DNA of 64,000 bases from assembly GCF_013409625.1 (NCBI RefSeq), contig NZ_JACCBF010000001.1, forward strand, positions 62,001-126,000, read 5' to 3'. Source of the DNA: Nocardioides kongjuensis. GTDB lineage: Bacteria; Actinomycetota; Actinomycetes; Propionibacteriales; Nocardioidaceae. The notes under the pieces are model-generated. The model saw nothing but the letters and a program-made list of their open reading frames with translations. It was not told the origin of the DNA and did not search any database. How positions within the stretch are numbered: position 1 is the stretch's first letter; every line of letters begins with the position of its first letter. The translations under genes were made by a program, and so were the position numbers. This document shows positions 7,373-64,000 of this stretch, piece after piece.

Positions 7373-8182
7373 TCATCCGATCGGCCCTCCCGCGAAGGTG
7401 CTGTAGACCTGCGAGATCACGAAGTTGGCCGCGAAGAGCAGCACGAAGTTGGTCACCACCGCGCTGGTGACCGCCTCGCCGACGCCGGTCGGGCCGCGCT
7501 CGGCCCGCAGTCCCTTGTACGACGCCACGAGGGCGCAGATCACCGCGAAGATCGCCGCCTTGGCCAGCGAGAGCCACAGGTCGGAGACCTGGGCCAGCGT
7601 GGTGACCGAGGCGAGGTAGCTGCCCGGCGGGAGGTCCTGCAGCACCACGCTGACGCTGAGCGTGGTGATGATCGTGAAGAACATGACGACGCCGTTGAGC
7701 AGCACCGCGACGGCGACGACCGCGAACATCCGCGGCACGACGAGCCGCTCTACCACCGAGAGGCCCATCACCTCCATCGCGTCGATCTCCTCGCGGATCC
7801 GGCGCGAGCCGAGGTCCGCGCAGATCGCCGAGCCGGCGACGCCGGACAGCATCAGGGCCGTGATCAGGGGAGAGGCCTGGCGGACGACGGCCAGCGTGTT
7901 GCCCGCGCCGGTGAACGCGACGGCCCCGACCTCCTGGGCGAGCACGCCGACCTGCAGCGCGAGGATGATGCCGAACGGGACCGAGACCGCGAGGGCGGGC
8001 AGCGTGCAGACCCGGATCGCGTACCAGGTCTGCACCACGGTCTCGGCCAGCGGGAACCGGCGACCCGTGACCGACCCGAGAGCGGCGGCGAGCACCCGGC
8101 GGGTGAACCCGAGCAGCGCGACGACCTCCGCGAGCGGCCTGCCGAGGGCCAGGGCGGCCCGCGGGGCGCTGTGGGCGGGCAT
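7373..8182 (-). CDS. MlaE/YrbE family ABC transporter permease, YrbE-A position
   Basis: A 269-residue MlaE-family permease, first gene of the mce operon. It has about five membrane segments and the family's R-I-R-E-E-I-D-A-M-E-V-M coupling motif in the middle of the protein. The ATG is preceded by a usable ribosome site (AGGAG). It is transcribed from the divergent promoter region shared with the MerR regulator at 8340, whose likely operator covers this gene's -10 box. Confidence 0.95.
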   Translation of the reverse strand: MPAHSAPRAALALGRPLAEVVALLGFTRRVLAAALGSVTGRRFPLAETVVQTWYAIRVCTLPALAVSVPFGIILALQVGVLAQEVGAVAFTGAGNTLAVVRQASPLITALMLSGVAGSAICADLGSRRIREEIDAMEVMGLSVVERLVVPRMFAVVAVAVLLNGVVMFFTIITTLSVSVVLQDLPPGSYLASVTTLAQVSDLWLSLAKAAIFAVICALVASYKGLRAERGPTGVGEAVTSAVVTNFVLLFAANFVISQVYSTFAGGPIG

Positions 8183-59505: not shown

Positions 59506-59706
59506 TACGCTGACCCGGTTACATCGAGAACACGCCCGTGGTGGGGGAAGCCGGTCGAATCCCGGCGCTGACCCGCAACCGTGGACCGCCCCTCGGGGAG
59601 CGGTGAGCCGGAGCACCCGACGCGGCGCGTCCTGACACAACGCTGTCGCGGAGAGCAGCGGGTCAGCGGCACAGGACTTCTGGGCCCGCCCGTCGGCTGC
59701 AGCGGG
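59506..59706 (+). promoter_or_regulatory. Cobalamin riboswitch
   Basis: The 375-bp gap before the barrel-protein gene holds a B12 aptamer. Conserved parts in order: GGGGGAAGCCGGT (59543-59555), the paired GCCGG/CCGGC arm, GCTGACCCGCAACCGT (59567-59582) and AGCCGGAGCACCCGAC (59606-59621). CGCTGACCCG occurs at 59508-59517 and again in the core (59566-59575); both copies are exact complements of CGGGTCAGCG at 59659-59668. A last hairpin (CCCGC 59685-59689 with GCGGG 59702-59706) covers part of the ribosome site, so translation is probably shut off when B12 is bound. TACGCT at 59506 may be the -10 box. The stretch 59342-59505 shows nothing I can name. Confidence 0.88.
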
Positions 59707-59716
59707 AAGGCACCAC

Positions 59717-61219
59717 ATGTCCACCTCCCTGTTCGTACGCCGGGCGGTCGCTGCCGTCGCCGGTACTGCCGTTGTCGCCGGTGGGTTGATGGCCGTCGCG
59801 CCGGCTCCGGCCGCGCACGCGGTCCCGGCCGCGCCCAACGCCGAGGCGAGTGCCGCCGCGGCATGGCTCAGCGATGCGATCGGCGGTGACGGCCTGATCC
59901 CTGGTGGCGGGGTTGGTGGCTTCTTCTACGGCGCCAATCTCGACTTCGGCATCAGCCTCGCCGCGACCGGTCAGGCGCCGTCCGCCGCATTGACCAAGAT
60001 CACCGACGGCATCGACGCCACCGTTGCAGACTACGTCGGCGACATCAATGCCGCGGCGAACGCAGGCAAGGTCGCCCACGCGGCCTACTTCTACGCCGTG
60101 ACCGGCGGCAACGCCTCTGACGCGGGCGACGATCACCTTGACCTCGCTGCGGCGCTGGCCGCCCAGGTCGACGACACGACGGGCCAGCTCGGCAGCACCA
60201 ACACCGTCTACAACCAGGTGTGGGCGGTCTTCGCGCTGAAGGCGATCGACAGCAACGAGGCCGCGAAGGCTCGCGACTTCCTCGTCGCTCAGCGCGGTCC
60301 CGCTGCCACCGACGGTTGGGGCTATGACGCCGGTGTCTGGACGAATGACGTTGACGCCACGTCCTGGGCCCTGCAGGCACTCGCGCCGTGGCAGTCCGAC
60401 ACCACCGTCAAGGCCGCGATTGACGCCGGAGCGACCTACCTGCGCTCGACGCAGAAGCCGAGCGGCGGGATCGATGCGGGCTTCCTGGGGGTGAACGCCA
60501 ACAGCACGGGGCTTGCCGCGTACGCGTTCGGCCTCACAGGACGTACGACCGAGGCCTCTGCTGCCGCATCGTGGGTAGCGGCCCACCAGTCCGTCGCTCT
60601 CGCGGGCTGTGGCGTGCCCGGGCCGAATGCCGGTGCCATCGCCTATGACGACCTCGCGTTCGCCGGCGGCGTGACCGCGGACGAGGTCGACCAGGCCGGG
60701 CCTGCGACCGCGCAGGCCCTGGAGGGCCTGGCCTACCTCCCGGCGGCCCAGCCGAGCCTCCCGAAGTTCGCCGATGCCGGTACGACGAACAGCCTTCCGC
60801 TCCAGGGGGCGCGCACCGGTCAGCAGGTCTGCGTCACCGGGCTCGGCGCCCCGCAGCAGTTGACCGCCCCGGCCTCCGCCACCTACGCAGCGCCGGCGGG
60901 CACTGCCGACCACCCGGTCACGCTGACCTTCCTCGGAGGCAGCACCACGACGACCCTCAAGGCCCTCGACGCCACCAGGCTCAAGGTCAAGGTCGCCACC
61001 AAGCTCAAGGCGAACAAGAAGGCCACGATCAAGGTCAAGGGTCTCGCCGCCGGCGAGAGCGTGAGCGTGAAGATCGGCAAGAAGACCGCCACCGGCACCG
61101 CGAACGCCAACGGCGTCGCCAAGGTGAGGATCAAGGTGAAGAAGAAGGGCAAGGCCAAGGTCAAGGTGGTCGGTCAGTTCCCCGACCGCAAGGGCAAGGC
61201 CACCACCCGGGTCGTGTGA
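59717..61219 (+). CDS. Secreted alpha/alpha-barrel (prenyltransferase-repeat) protein, candidate B12-binding alpha domain
   Basis: A 500-residue protein with a signal peptide (about 1-35, A-H-A). An alpha/alpha barrel (about 40-370) is built of prenyltransferase/squalene-cyclase-type repeats, each a helix pair with a Gly-rich turn (L-I-P-G-G-G-V-G-G-F-F, D-G-W-G-Y-D-A-G-V-W, S-G-G-I-D-A-G-F). A very Lys-rich Ig-like C-terminal domain (about 400-500) follows, without membrane helix. Catalytic DxDD and zinc ligands of true enzymes are absent. The ATG follows GGGAAGG. The cobalamin riboswitch and the ECF genes downstream suggest B12 capture, as by the alpha domain of intrinsic factor. Confidence 0.82.
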   Translation: MSTSLFVRRAVAAVAGTAVVAGGLMAVAPAPAAHAVPAAPNAEASAAAAWLSDAIGGDGLIPGGGVGGFFYGANLDFGISLAATGQAPSAALTKITDGIDATVADYVGDINAAANAGKVAHAAYFYAVTGGNASDAGDDHLDLAAALAAQVDDTTGQLGSTNTVYNQVWAVFALKAIDSNEAAKARDFLVAQRGPAATDGWGYDAGVWTNDVDATSWALQALAPWQSDTTVKAAIDAGATYLRSTQKPSGGIDAGFLGVNANSTGLAAYAFGLTGRTTEASAAASWVAAHQSVALAGCGVPGPNAGAIAYDDLAFAGGVTADEVDQAGPATAQALEGLAYLPAAQPSLPKFADAGTTNSLPLQGARTGQQVCVTGLGAPQQLTAPASATYAAPAGTADHPVTLTFLGGSTTTTLKALDATRLKVKVATKLKANKKATIKVKGLAAGESVSVKIGKKTATGTANANGVAKVRIKVKKKGKAKVKVVGQFPDRKGKATTRVV

Positions 61220-62079
61220 TGACCTCCAGCAGCACCCTGCGCACTGCAGCCGCGACGATCCTCGTCGCGGCTGCCGTCGTGCTGCTCCCGCAGGCGTCGG
61301 CGTCGGCGGCGGCCTGTGGCGGCAGCACGGGCATCACCGTCGTGGTCGACTCCAACCAGCTCGGCGCCGGCATCAGCGCGGGCTGCGACGCGGACGGCGG
61401 CACCGCGGCGAACAACTTCGCCGACGCTGGTTACCAGCTCGAGTACAGCCAGGCAGCGGGCATGAGCGGCTTCGTCTGCAAGATCAACGGCAACCCGGCC
61501 AACGGCGACTGCACGGAGACCGACGCCTACTGGAGCCTGTGGTGGTCCGACGGGAAGTCGGGCACCTGGACGTACGCCGCCCGCGGAGTGGGGAGCCTGC
61601 GCGTTCCCGACGGCGGGTACGTCGCCTTCGCGTGGCACCAGGGCAATGGCCAGGCCGCGCCTCCCGACGTCGCGCCGACCCCGCGGGTCCAGGAGGCCAA
61701 GCCGACGCCCGCACCCAGCCCGACCAGGTCCACGAAGCCGAAGCCGTCGGCGAAGCCCACGCCCAAGCCGACCCCGAAGCCCTCGGCCAGTGCGACCTCG
61801 GCGACCCCGAGCGCCAGCGCCACCCCGAGCGCCTCGGCGTCCACGGCGACGCCGACCGCGACTCCGACGGACGCGACTCCGAGCGACACCCCGAGCCAGA
61901 CCACGACCACCGGTCTGCCGTCGATCGACGAGATCACCGACGGCCCCGAGGCGACGTCCGCGGACGTGGACGGCGAGAACGACGGCGGCGGGTTCCCCGC
62001 GTGGCTGGGGATCGGGCTGGTCGTGGTGGTGCTGGGGGCGGCGGGCGCCGTACCCCTGATCCGTCGACGCAGGGCCTGA
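61219..62079 (+). CDS. Secreted, C-terminally anchored DUF4430-like (transcobalamin beta-domain-like) protein
   Basis: A 286-residue protein. A signal peptide (about 1-29) is followed by a small beta-domain (about 32-145) with four or more Cys, K-I-N-G-N-P-A-N-G-D-C, Y-W-S-L-W-W-S-D-G-K-S-G-T-W-T-Y and G-S-L-R-V-P-D-G-G-Y-V-A-F-A-W, the pattern of DUF4430/transcobalamin C-terminal domains. Then come a Pro/Lys/Ser/Thr linker of about 85 residues, an acidic stretch, one membrane helix (about 262-280) and R-R-R-R. The ATG overlaps the barrel gene's stop (TGATG). It probably closes over B12 with the barrel protein at the cell surface. Confidence 0.8.
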   Translation: MTSSSTLRTAAATILVAAAVVLLPQASASAAACGGSTGITVVVDSNQLGAGISAGCDADGGTAANNFADAGYQLEYSQAAGMSGFVCKINGNPANGDCTETDAYWSLWWSDGKSGTWTYAARGVGSLRVPDGGYVAFAWHQGNGQAAPPDVAPTPRVQEAKPTPAPSPTRSTKPKPSAKPTPKPTPKPSASATSATPSASATPSASASTATPTATPTDATPSDTPSQTTTTGLPSIDEITDGPEATSADVDGENDGGGFPAWLGIGLVVVVLGAAGAVPLIRRRRA

Positions 62080-62086
62080 GCGGGTC

Positions 62087-63193
62087 ATGGGCGCAGGACG
62101 GCTGGCACGGGACCTCCACCCGGTCGCGTGGTGGGTCTGGGCGGTGGGGCTGGCCGTGGCCGCCTCCTGCACGACCAACCCGTGGCTGCTGCTCGTCCTG
62201 CTCGGCGTGGTCACCCTCGTCGTGCTCACCTGCCGCTCCGACCAGCCGTGGGCGCGCTCGTTCCGGCTCTACGTCTGGCTCGGCGTCGTGGTGCTCGTCG
62301 TGCGGATCCTGTTCCGGGTGCTGCTCGGCGGCGACGTGCCGGGCCACGTCCTGTTCACGCTGCCGAGCATCCCCCTGCCCGACTGGGCGGCGGGCATCTC
62401 GCTGCTCGGGCCGTTCACCCGCGAGGAGCTGCTCGCGGCGACGTACGAGGGACTGCGCCTGGCAACCCTGCTGATCGCGGTCGGCGCCGCCAACGCGCTG
62501 GCCAACCCCAAGCGACTGATGAAGTCGCTGCCGCCGGCCCTCTACGAGATCGGTACGGCGATGACGGTGGCGATCAGCGTGGTCCCGCAGCTCGCCGACA
62601 GCGCGCGGCGGGTGCGGGCTGCGCAGCAGCTGCGCGGGGGACCGGAGGGGCGGTTCCGCCGGGTCCGGGGCGTACGACGCCTGCTGGTCCCGATCCTCGA
62701 GGACGCCTTCGACCGCTCGCTGGCACTGGCCGCCGGCATGGACGCCCGCGGCTACGGCCGCACCGGTGAGCTCACCGCCGTCCAGCGCCGCCGCACCGGA
62801 GCGCTCATCATCGGCGGCCTGGTCGGGGTGTGCGTCGGCGTCTACGCCTTCCTCGACAGCACCGCGCCGCGCCTGCTGGCGTTGCCGATGCTGGTGCTCG
62901 GGATGCTCCTCGCCCTCGGCGGCTTCGCGCTGGCGGGCCGGCGGGTGCAGCGCACGCGCTACCGCCCTGACCGCTGGCAGCTCCCGGAGCTCGTCGTCGC
63001 CGGGGCCGGGATCGCCGCAGGTGCAGGGATGTGGGCGCTCCAGCGGTGGGACACGGCCGTCGCGCACCCCGGCGTCCTGGTCCGCCCCGACGTCTCGCTG
63101 CTGGCCCTCGCGGCAGCGCTGGTCGCCGTGCTCCCGGTCTGGGCCGCGCCGCTGCCGGTCACCGCCCGACGGCGCGTGGAGGTGGTGGCCTGA
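62087..63193 (+). CDS. ecfT: ECF transporter transmembrane component T
   Basis: A 368-residue membrane protein of the EcfT (CbiQ-like) family with about seven to eight helices. It has the two cytoplasmic coupling motifs, degenerate in the first (R-R-V-R-A-A-Q-Q-L-R-G) and standard in the second (M-D-A-R-G-Y-G-R, about 220-227), which contact the ATPases. It lies 7 bp after the beta-domain gene and overlaps the ATPase start (TGATG). The substrate is inferred as cobalamin from the riboswitch; the S component is not in the window. Confidence 0.93.
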   Translation: MGAGRLARDLHPVAWWVWAVGLAVAASCTTNPWLLLVLLGVVTLVVLTCRSDQPWARSFRLYVWLGVVVLVVRILFRVLLGGDVPGHVLFTLPSIPLPDWAAGISLLGPFTREELLAATYEGLRLATLLIAVGAANALANPKRLMKSLPPALYEIGTAMTVAISVVPQLADSARRVRAAQQLRGGPEGRFRRVRGVRRLLVPILEDAFDRSLALAAGMDARGYGRTGELTAVQRRRTGALIIGGLVGVCVGVYAFLDSTAPRLLALPMLVLGMLLALGGFALAGRRVQRTRYRPDRWQLPELVVAGAGIAAGAGMWALQRWDTAVAHPGVLVRPDVSLLALAAALVAVLPVWAAPLPVTARRRVEVVA

Positions 63194-64000
63194 TGCTCGA
63201 GCTGCGCGGGATCACGCTGACCTACGACGACCCGGAGACCACCGCCCGCACCACCGTCCTCGACCGGGTCGACCTGACCGTCACCGACGGCGAGCTGGTC
63301 GTCCTGGCCGGTCCGACCGGCGTCGGCAAGTCGACGCTGCTCGGCGTCGTGGCCGGCCTGGTGCCGTCGTACACCGGCGGCACGCTCGCCGGCGACGTCC
63401 TCCTCGACGGCGCCAGCATCGTCGAGCGGCCGGCCAGGGAGCGCGCCCACGCGATCGGGTACGTCGGCCAGAACCCCGCCGCGTGGTTCGTCACCGACAC
63501 GGTGGAGGAGGAGCTGGCGTTCGGGATGGAGCAGCTGGGGCTGCCCGCGCCGACGATGCGTCGCCGGGTCGAGGAGACCCTCGACCTGCTCGGCATCGCC
63601 GAGCTGCGCCACCGCGACCTGCGCACCCTCTCGGGCGGCCAGCAGCAACGCGTGGCGATCGGCGCCGTGCTCACCACCCACCCCCGGCTGCTGGTCCTCG
63701 ACGAGCCCACCTCGGCGCTCGACCCGACCGCGGCCGAGGACGTCCTCGCGACGCTCACGCGGCTGGTCCACGACCTCGGCGTCTCGGTGCTGGTCGCCGA
63801 GCACCGCCTCGAGCGCGTGGTGCCCTTCGCCGACCGGCTCTGCCTGCTCCACCGGGGTGGCCGGGTCGAGGTCGGCGAGCCTGCCGAGGTGCTCCGGGAC
63901 GCGCCGATCGCGCCGCCGCTGGTCGAGCTGGGCCGGCTCGCCGGGTGGCAGCCGTTGCCCCTCACCGTCCGCGAGGCCCGGCGCCGCGCGCCCGCGCTGA
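63193..64000 (+). CDS. ecfA: ECF transporter ATP-binding protein (partial, runs off the end)
   Basis: The first 269 codons of an ABC ATPase; no stop is reached. Walker A G-P-T-G-V-G-K-S-T (about 40-48), the Q-loop in Y-V-G-Q-N-P, signature L-S-G-G-Q-Q-Q-R, Walker B L-L-V-L-D-E-P-T-S-A-L-D and the switch His in A-E-H-R-L-E-R are all intact. Actinobacterial EcfA proteins often have two ATPase halves in one chain, and the sequence continues past the first half without a stop, so a fused A1-A2 protein is likely. The S component should follow outside the window. Confidence 0.93.
   Translation, partial: MLELRGITLTYDDPETTARTTVLDRVDLTVTDGELVVLAGPTGVGKSTLLGVVAGLVPSYTGGTLAGDVLLDGASIVERPARERAHAIGYVGQNPAAWFVTDTVEEELAFGMEQLGLPAPTMRRRVEETLDLLGIAELRHRDLRTLSGGQQQRVAIGAVLTTHPRLLVLDEPTSALDPTAAEDVLATLTRLVHDLGVSVLVAEHRLERVVPFADRLCLLHRGGRVEVGEPAEVLRDAPIAPPLVELGRLAGWQPLPLTVREARRRAPAL

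Follow-up and report, generated by a model that had tools for sequence, protein, structure and literature searches.

A probable two-part, transcobalamin-like B12 capture step ahead of an energy-coupling factor importer in Nocardioides kongjuensis

Can a bacterium capture vitamin B12 at its surface with a device built like human transcobalamin, but divided between two proteins? This question is raised by an operon at the end of the window, the whole stretch of 64,000 nucleotides analysed here, which comprises bases 62,001-126,000 of the single-contig 5.67 Mb genome of the soil actinobacterium Nocardioides kongjuensis (contig C1). The operon runs in the order cobalamin riboswitch, toroid protein, beta protein, EcfT, EcfA and S component (EcfS), the last three forming an energy-coupling factor (ECF) importer. 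ECF transporters are usually described as relying on the S component alone. The evidence presented below indicates that this locus probably encodes a B12 capture step built like that of human transcobalamin from two separate parts. In the fuller account, which we consider fairly likely, it is a cobalamin-repressed uptake operon whose toroid and tethered beta protein form a split transcobalamin-like corrinoid trap feeding EcfS, EcfT and EcfA. The computed support consists of the gene set, its order and coupling, the predicted folds of both proteins, the riboswitch link, conservation and natural fusions.

The operon and its riboswitch

All elements of the operon inside the window lie on its forward strand. 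The riboswitch with its conserved flanks occupies 59510..59700 (outer limits set by eye), and within it RF00174 matches the core at 59544-59618 with 24.8 bits (E 2e-4, 501 bases searched). It is followed by the gene of the secreted alpha/alpha toroid protein (59717..61219, 500 aa) and that of the beta-grasp protein (61219, or GTG 61216, to 62079; 286 aa from the ATG). EcfT, the transmembrane coupling subunit, is encoded at 62087..63193 (PF02361 CbiQ, E 4.1e-15, above cut-off), and the first part of EcfA at 63193..64000 (PF00005, E 5.4e-29, above cut-off). The full-length EcfA, whose second ATPase half was read by eye from the genome sequence beyond the window, is a 542-aa fusion of two ABC halves ending at genome position C1:126821. 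Directly after it, EcfS is encoded at C1:126818-127660 (PF12822, E 2e-9, above cut-off), so that an ECF importer with its own S component is complete.

The genes are tightly coupled. Stop and start codons overlap as TGATG between toroid and beta and between EcfT and EcfA, and as GTGA between EcfA and EcfS; the only non-overlapping junction is a gap of 7 nt between the beta stop and the EcfT start. The riboswitch-headed set of toroid, beta, EcfT and EcfA described in the original prediction is therefore real, as coordinates, overlaps and family matches agree, and the S component that it proposed to look for downstream is present. The nearest named relatives of the window proteins belong to Nocardioides and Pimelobacter, mostly under the database name 'hypothetical protein'.

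Recurrence across the phylum and the cobalamin link

Related loci (numbered L, and genomes G) were collected by scanning genome contigs with a profile of the beta protein, which gave 72 loci (L006-L077). For these and for L117-L149, beta alone served to find the loci; some of the loci counted afterwards had contributed to the toroid and ECF profiles. The limits for counting a neighbour were 2.2 kb upstream for a toroid, 0.9 kb upstream for a riboswitch and 9 kb downstream for ECF genes; L001-L004 were excluded from the neighbourhood counts. The 72 loci derive mostly from Nocardioides, and also from Aeromicrobium, Micromonospora, Salinispora, Dactylosporangium, Rhizocola, Amycolatopsis and others. 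A toroid gene stands upstream of beta in 71 of them, the exception being a locus that begins at beta; counted by copy, it lies directly upstream of 78 of 88 beta copies. EcfT, EcfA and EcfS follow downstream in 63 loci. Seven of the nine exceptions lie at the end of a contig; of the other two, L076 is without ECF genes, and in L077 these genes are oppositely oriented.

In a phylum sample of 396 genomes, the beta profile matches 41 at E<=1e-5, of which 33 loci were read. The remaining eight comprise the genome of the window itself and seven in which the match is confined to linker and membrane tail, from profile position 151 on. With the exception of two loci at contig ends, all 33 have EcfT, EcfA and EcfS downstream; a toroid is upstream in 23, and a riboswitch was recognised by pattern in 16 and by Rfam in six more. 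The beta profile undercounts, because four genomes matched only at the tail (G023, G193, G246 and G352) carry the operon, as found via the toroid. The toroid search itself matches 96/396 genomes at 1e-10; 20 further toroid loci were read, and in 14 of them beta and ECF genes adjoin the toroid. These include all ten loci of one genus with 6-10 Mb genomes, where the best beta scores are only 27-38 bits, the S component lies beyond the contig end in one case, and a riboswitch is ahead in seven (five by pattern, two by Rfam). It can be seen that the same gene order recurs in other actinobacteria across the phylum, together with its cobalamin link.

The riboswitch core pattern is present at the operon head in 68 of the 72 beta-profile loci, and Rfam adds L015; of the remaining three, two begin too close to the operon and L076 has none. 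In 2.9 Mb of related loci (both strands) the pattern occurs 92 times, one occurrence being an evident stray (L133, position 4215), and in three shuffles it does not occur. An alignment of 36 of these 92 matches (A5) contains 32 invariant columns, in part imposed by the search pattern itself, and two-sided changes at 10 of 20 predicted pairs. The aptamer motifs noticed originally are thus confirmed by the RF00174 match and by the conserved core and covarying stems in relatives. When 25 pattern-negative related loci were rescanned with Rfam, 10 passed the gathering score at the operon head (L015, L123, L129, L130, L135, L142, L146, L203, L206 and L215).

Systems with the curated DUF4430 family (PF14478) provide a further comparison. 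This family was found in 76/396 phylum genomes, and 20 such loci were read. In 10 of the 20 (L184, L187-L190, L192-L196), a toroid match stands alongside DUF4430, EcfA and EcfS; some of the sequences behind the DUF4430 profile used for this reading were taken from the wrong strand, and the positions relied on coincide with PF14478 matches. Seven of eight scanned with Rfam have a cobalamin riboswitch of 88.8-115.7 bits, and L190 has none. These strong riboswitches provide support for a cobalamin link that does not depend on the weak match in the window. In L187, L188 and L192, the three loci examined for it, riboswitch and DUF4430 are separated by an extra long open frame, which encodes a PQQ-type propeller/DUF5719 protein in L187 and L188, the two scanned. 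As an observation in its own right, L188:4325-12970 joins a strong riboswitch, the propeller/DUF5719 protein, DUF4430, ECF genes and a toroid, and similar arrangements are seen in L187-L196, the propeller having been scanned in L187 and L188 only.

The union of toroid and beta in one polypeptide, as in animal carriers, is absent from the window, where two genes are used, and is found in several relatives. L215 combines a signal, the toroid, the beta domain and a membrane tail in a single 566-residue frame; EcfT, EcfA and EcfS come after it, and a riboswitch scoring above cut-off (49.6 bits) heads the operon. L218 carries another fusion, with a tail that by eye resembles S-layer repeats, and the fusions of L119, L130 and L132 bear three CWB2 cell-wall repeats. 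G134 and G102 carry the toroid gene at a genomic site apart from the beta-ECF unit, each of the two having a riboswitch of its own. Seven loci (five Micromonospora, Dactylosporangium L070, and L124) have the toroid-beta pair twice ahead of EcfT. Each copy is closer to its positional equivalent in other genomes than to its sister: positional equivalents share on average 80% (minimum 53) for toroids and 86 (minimum 70) for beta domains, versus at most 45 and 69, respectively, with the other copy.

Predicted folds of the two secreted proteins

The toroid protein consists of a hydrophobic N-terminal signal, a toroid at about residues 39-344 and basic beta-strand domains up to residue 500, with a net charge of -21 over residues 31-345 and +23 over residues 346-500. 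Its AlphaFold model has a mean pLDDT of 89.3 and a pTM of 0.85. In the VIA fold comparison drimenyl diphosphate synthase and squalene-hopene cyclase rank highest, transcobalamin also matches, and GH76 and GH105 rows score about 19-21. The alpha/alpha toroid of the transcobalamin, intrinsic factor and haptocorrin type is present in this predicted fold. By sequence, the window toroid matches no Pfam family at E<=1 and nothing in the PDB. The toroid profile finds cyclases and complement TED domains in the PDB, with no transcobalamin among the matches listed. PF13243 is matched at E<=0.1 by 16 of the 35 members of the toroid alignment (A1, 35 of 38 available sequences, with P0001, P0032 and P0037 left out). 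PF01122 Cobalamin_bind does not match the window proteins, and its sole match is weak and below cut-off (E 0.006), in the L130 fusion. Against NCBIfam, the toroid and beta proteins give sub-cut-off matches only, squalene cyclases among them.

The beta protein comprises a signal, a beta domain at about residues 36-143 (GTG numbering), a Pro/Thr/Ser-rich linker, a C-terminal hydrophobic helix and an RRRR tail. Its predicted fold aligns with the beta domain of the transcobalamin family, so that both parts appear, as models, to have folds of this family. Pfam returns for the window beta only a chance match below cut-off, and searches of the PDB with the sequence and profiles give linker or chance matches only. 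The assignment to this family is therefore based on predicted folds and profile comparison, the sequence-based PDB searches having listed no transcobalamin for either toroid or beta. The description of this domain as DUF4430-like holds by fold and profile and fails for the curated family. By hhalign the beta profile aligns with DUF4430 over 97 columns (probability 94.5, P 7.9e-8; control 0.2), and the DUF4430 profile itself finds 3u7z (E 0.003) and transcobalamin-1 (E 0.09) in the PDB. PF14478 matches none of the 73 aligned beta members at E<=1 (A2, the window and 72 of 120 listed matches out of 166 found) and is absent from the host genome. Across the 33 genomes with the beta family it has one match above cut-off, in L120, where beta, EcfT, EcfA, EcfS, a toroid and a curated DUF4430 protein stand in one row. 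A separate beta-domain set (A4) comprised 54 of 128 sequences (56 after thinning at 65% identity, two removed by hand, the window standing for L005). The beta family is thus one overlooked by Pfam.

Mechanism, rival explanations and known systems

In the proposed mechanism, the beta protein would be tethered by its C-terminal helix beyond the long linker, holding the trap near the membrane, and the toroid would bind it from outside. Together they would enclose one corrinoid (cobalamin or a close relative) at the cell surface. Release beside the S component would lead to import by EcfT and EcfA, and B12-replete cells would shut the operon off through the riboswitch. The split-transcobalamin idea of the original prediction is favoured by the predicted folds, the complete ECF importer with S component, the phylum-wide cobalamin link and the one-chain fusions; from these we infer the ligand, the two-chain sandwich, the hand-over to the S component and the direction of regulation. 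A broader model, which we regard as evenly balanced, assigns to Actinomycetota a two-chain transcobalamin in which the toroid closes over a beta-held corrinoid and the closed pair docks on EcfS; the trap would switch between split and fused forms, so that the animal carriers and the bacterial trap would be variants of one ancient device.

Several observations weigh against a joint trap for cobalamin. The window riboswitch scores below the RF00174 gathering score (24.8 versus 31.5) and would therefore be overlooked at the default Rfam threshold, and 15 of the 25 pattern-negative loci are also without an Rfam match at the operon head, some of them truncated by contig ends. Among related operons, four (L143, L145, L148 and L149), and only these, have neither a toroid nor a cobalamin riboswitch. 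L133, L140 and L144 carry beta-ECF units without an adjacent toroid yet with a riboswitch, and L119, L130 and L132 retain a separate beta gene before EcfT beside their complete toroid-beta fusions. The last arrangement speaks for the membrane beta protein acting as a receptor, perhaps without needing the toroid. Accordingly, the main rival is B12 uptake without a two-chain sandwich, in which the membrane beta protein alone may serve as receptor by the ECF importer and the toroid as a separate carrier or anchor. A beta domain can bind alone, as the solved structure 5np4, according to its available description, shows cyanocobalamin with the beta domain of human transcobalamin on its own. However, the adjacency of the genes in 71 of 72 loci, the one-chain fusions and the pairing-preserving copies favour cooperation, and a receptor without need for the toroid is considered unlikely.

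We judge it improbable that the cargo is not cobalamin but another corrinoid-related compound (cobinamide, another cobamide or a lower-ligand base) or cobalt. In favour of such a cargo, cobalamin synthesis genes and a second riboswitch-led importer are present in the host, a riboswitch reports the regulator rather than the cargo, and ECF-CbrT transports both cobalamin and cobinamide according to the available text of PMC5997447. Moreover, a sequence search of the PDB with EcfS alone gave no solved relative at E<=1, be it a cobalamin S component of the CbrT type or another. A toroid with a transcobalamin-type beta domain would nevertheless suit a large corrinoid rather than a metal ion or small base. 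As for the toroid being a terpene cyclase, glycoside hydrolase or lyase that stands in the operon by chance, its best fold matches are indeed the cyclases, a further point against a carrier role, and the GH76 and GH105 rows point the same way; transcobalamin matches too, and the catalytic motif is missing. The window has DVDA at the cyclase DXDD position, and D occupies the fourth place in 0/35 aligned toroids. The earlier statement that the repeats lack enzyme motifs stands for these members and is qualified by two near relatives (L006 and L009), in which DPDDT sits, by eye, at the cyclase site; a D.DD string occurs anywhere in 22 of 108 toroid frames. The polysaccharide-acting reading was dropped on motif, secretion and fusion evidence, and the terpene cyclase reading on the absence of DXDD, on secretion and on the fusions with the beta domain. 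Cobalamin riboswitches directly before solitary toroid genes also speak against an enzyme, which is very improbable.

The host context bears on the role of such a trap. CobN, CobQ, CobC, CobO, CobM and CobU were found above cut-off, and to judge from these genes the host probably makes B12. MetH and four matches of the methylmalonyl-CoA mutase family, two of them adjacent, are also encoded. Because of the cob genes and another riboswitch-led importer, the operon is more likely a salvage system than the sole B12 supply. In this importer, a FecCD-type permease and a binding protein stand behind the strongest cobalamin riboswitch of the host (107.5 bits; L086:4833-7941, genome C1:4019832-4022940). 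For these proteins the top NCBIfam matches, neither of which reaches cut-off, are the 'putative F420-0' transporter families TIGR03869 and TIGR03868; this label may misfit some members, and some could carry corrinoids.

The capture step is less new than the original prediction held. According to the available text of Burroughs et al. 2007 (PMC1796856), surface proteins with toroid and SLBB domains in fused form, encoded with CbiO and CbiQ, were predicted as B12 scavengers, and second SLBB genes in such operons were reported. These SLBB/DUF4430 systems share with the present operon the secreted beta-grasp domain, the alpha/alpha toroid and CbiO/CbiQ-like genes, here EcfA and EcfT directly downstream of beta and recurring in relatives. 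As described there, they are toroid-SLBB fusions, often with a second beta-grasp gene, mostly from low-GC Gram-positives, in hosts usually without B12 synthesis. The present operon differs in its two genes, its cobalamin riboswitch, its included S component, a beta family that falls outside PF14478 and a host with cob genes. Animal transcobalamin, intrinsic factor and haptocorrin likewise combine toroid and beta domain, and the predicted folds align to both; they are single soluble chains, while here the carrier is split, its beta part is membrane-tethered and its cobalamin binding is presumed. ECF-CbrT of Lactobacillus delbrueckii also has an ECF module with a dedicated S component, with cobalamin as cargo there and as probable cargo here; the available text of PMC5997447 mentions no extracellular capture protein. 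From what is available of PMC10404256, PMC6143338 and PMC8941943, BtuG and BtuH of Bacteroides are surface proteins by which B12 is caught before it reaches an importer. They are Gram-negative lipoproteins, BtuG being complexed with BtuB (PMC8941943), and the likeness to the proposed pair is one of role. A literature search, with most subscription journals outside its reach, found no experimental work on the toroid/beta pair and no test of the 2007 prediction. If the proposed trap is real, capture proteins would be extended to ECF transporters, and the human B12 carriers would be placed beside a widespread bacterial relative. This compact two-protein system has a built-in regulatory readout and occurs in genera with cultured strains (Nocardioides, Micromonospora and Salinispora); therefore, binding, cooperation and hand-over are directly testable.

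Several variants were observed besides. In L120, a strong cobalamin riboswitch (7575-7768, 91.6 bits) is on the complementary strand with respect to the beta-ECF operon and therefore probably serves a divergent gene. Toroid genes directly after a cobalamin riboswitch pattern are seen at L210:7783-8906, L217:7878-9031, L211:8160-9264 and L214:1952-3067, with no ECF genes nearby within the stretches read (L214 is a short contig). In Amycolatopsis arida (L076:5752-7333), a diverged toroid-beta pair has no ECF genes and no nearby riboswitch at the gathering score. After the beta gene of L143 (5617-8835), L145 (6037-8955), L148 and L149, one frame of about 1000 codons contains EcfT, both ATPase halves and EcfS, the EcfT and S parts being recognised by custom profiles only; such a frame may encode a single-chain ECF transporter with a different ligand. 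Finally, the second operon of Nocardioides sp. TF02-7 starts with one 833-codon frame composed of toroid, beta and EcfT pieces (L024:8144-10642), which is a deletion product or a sequence error.

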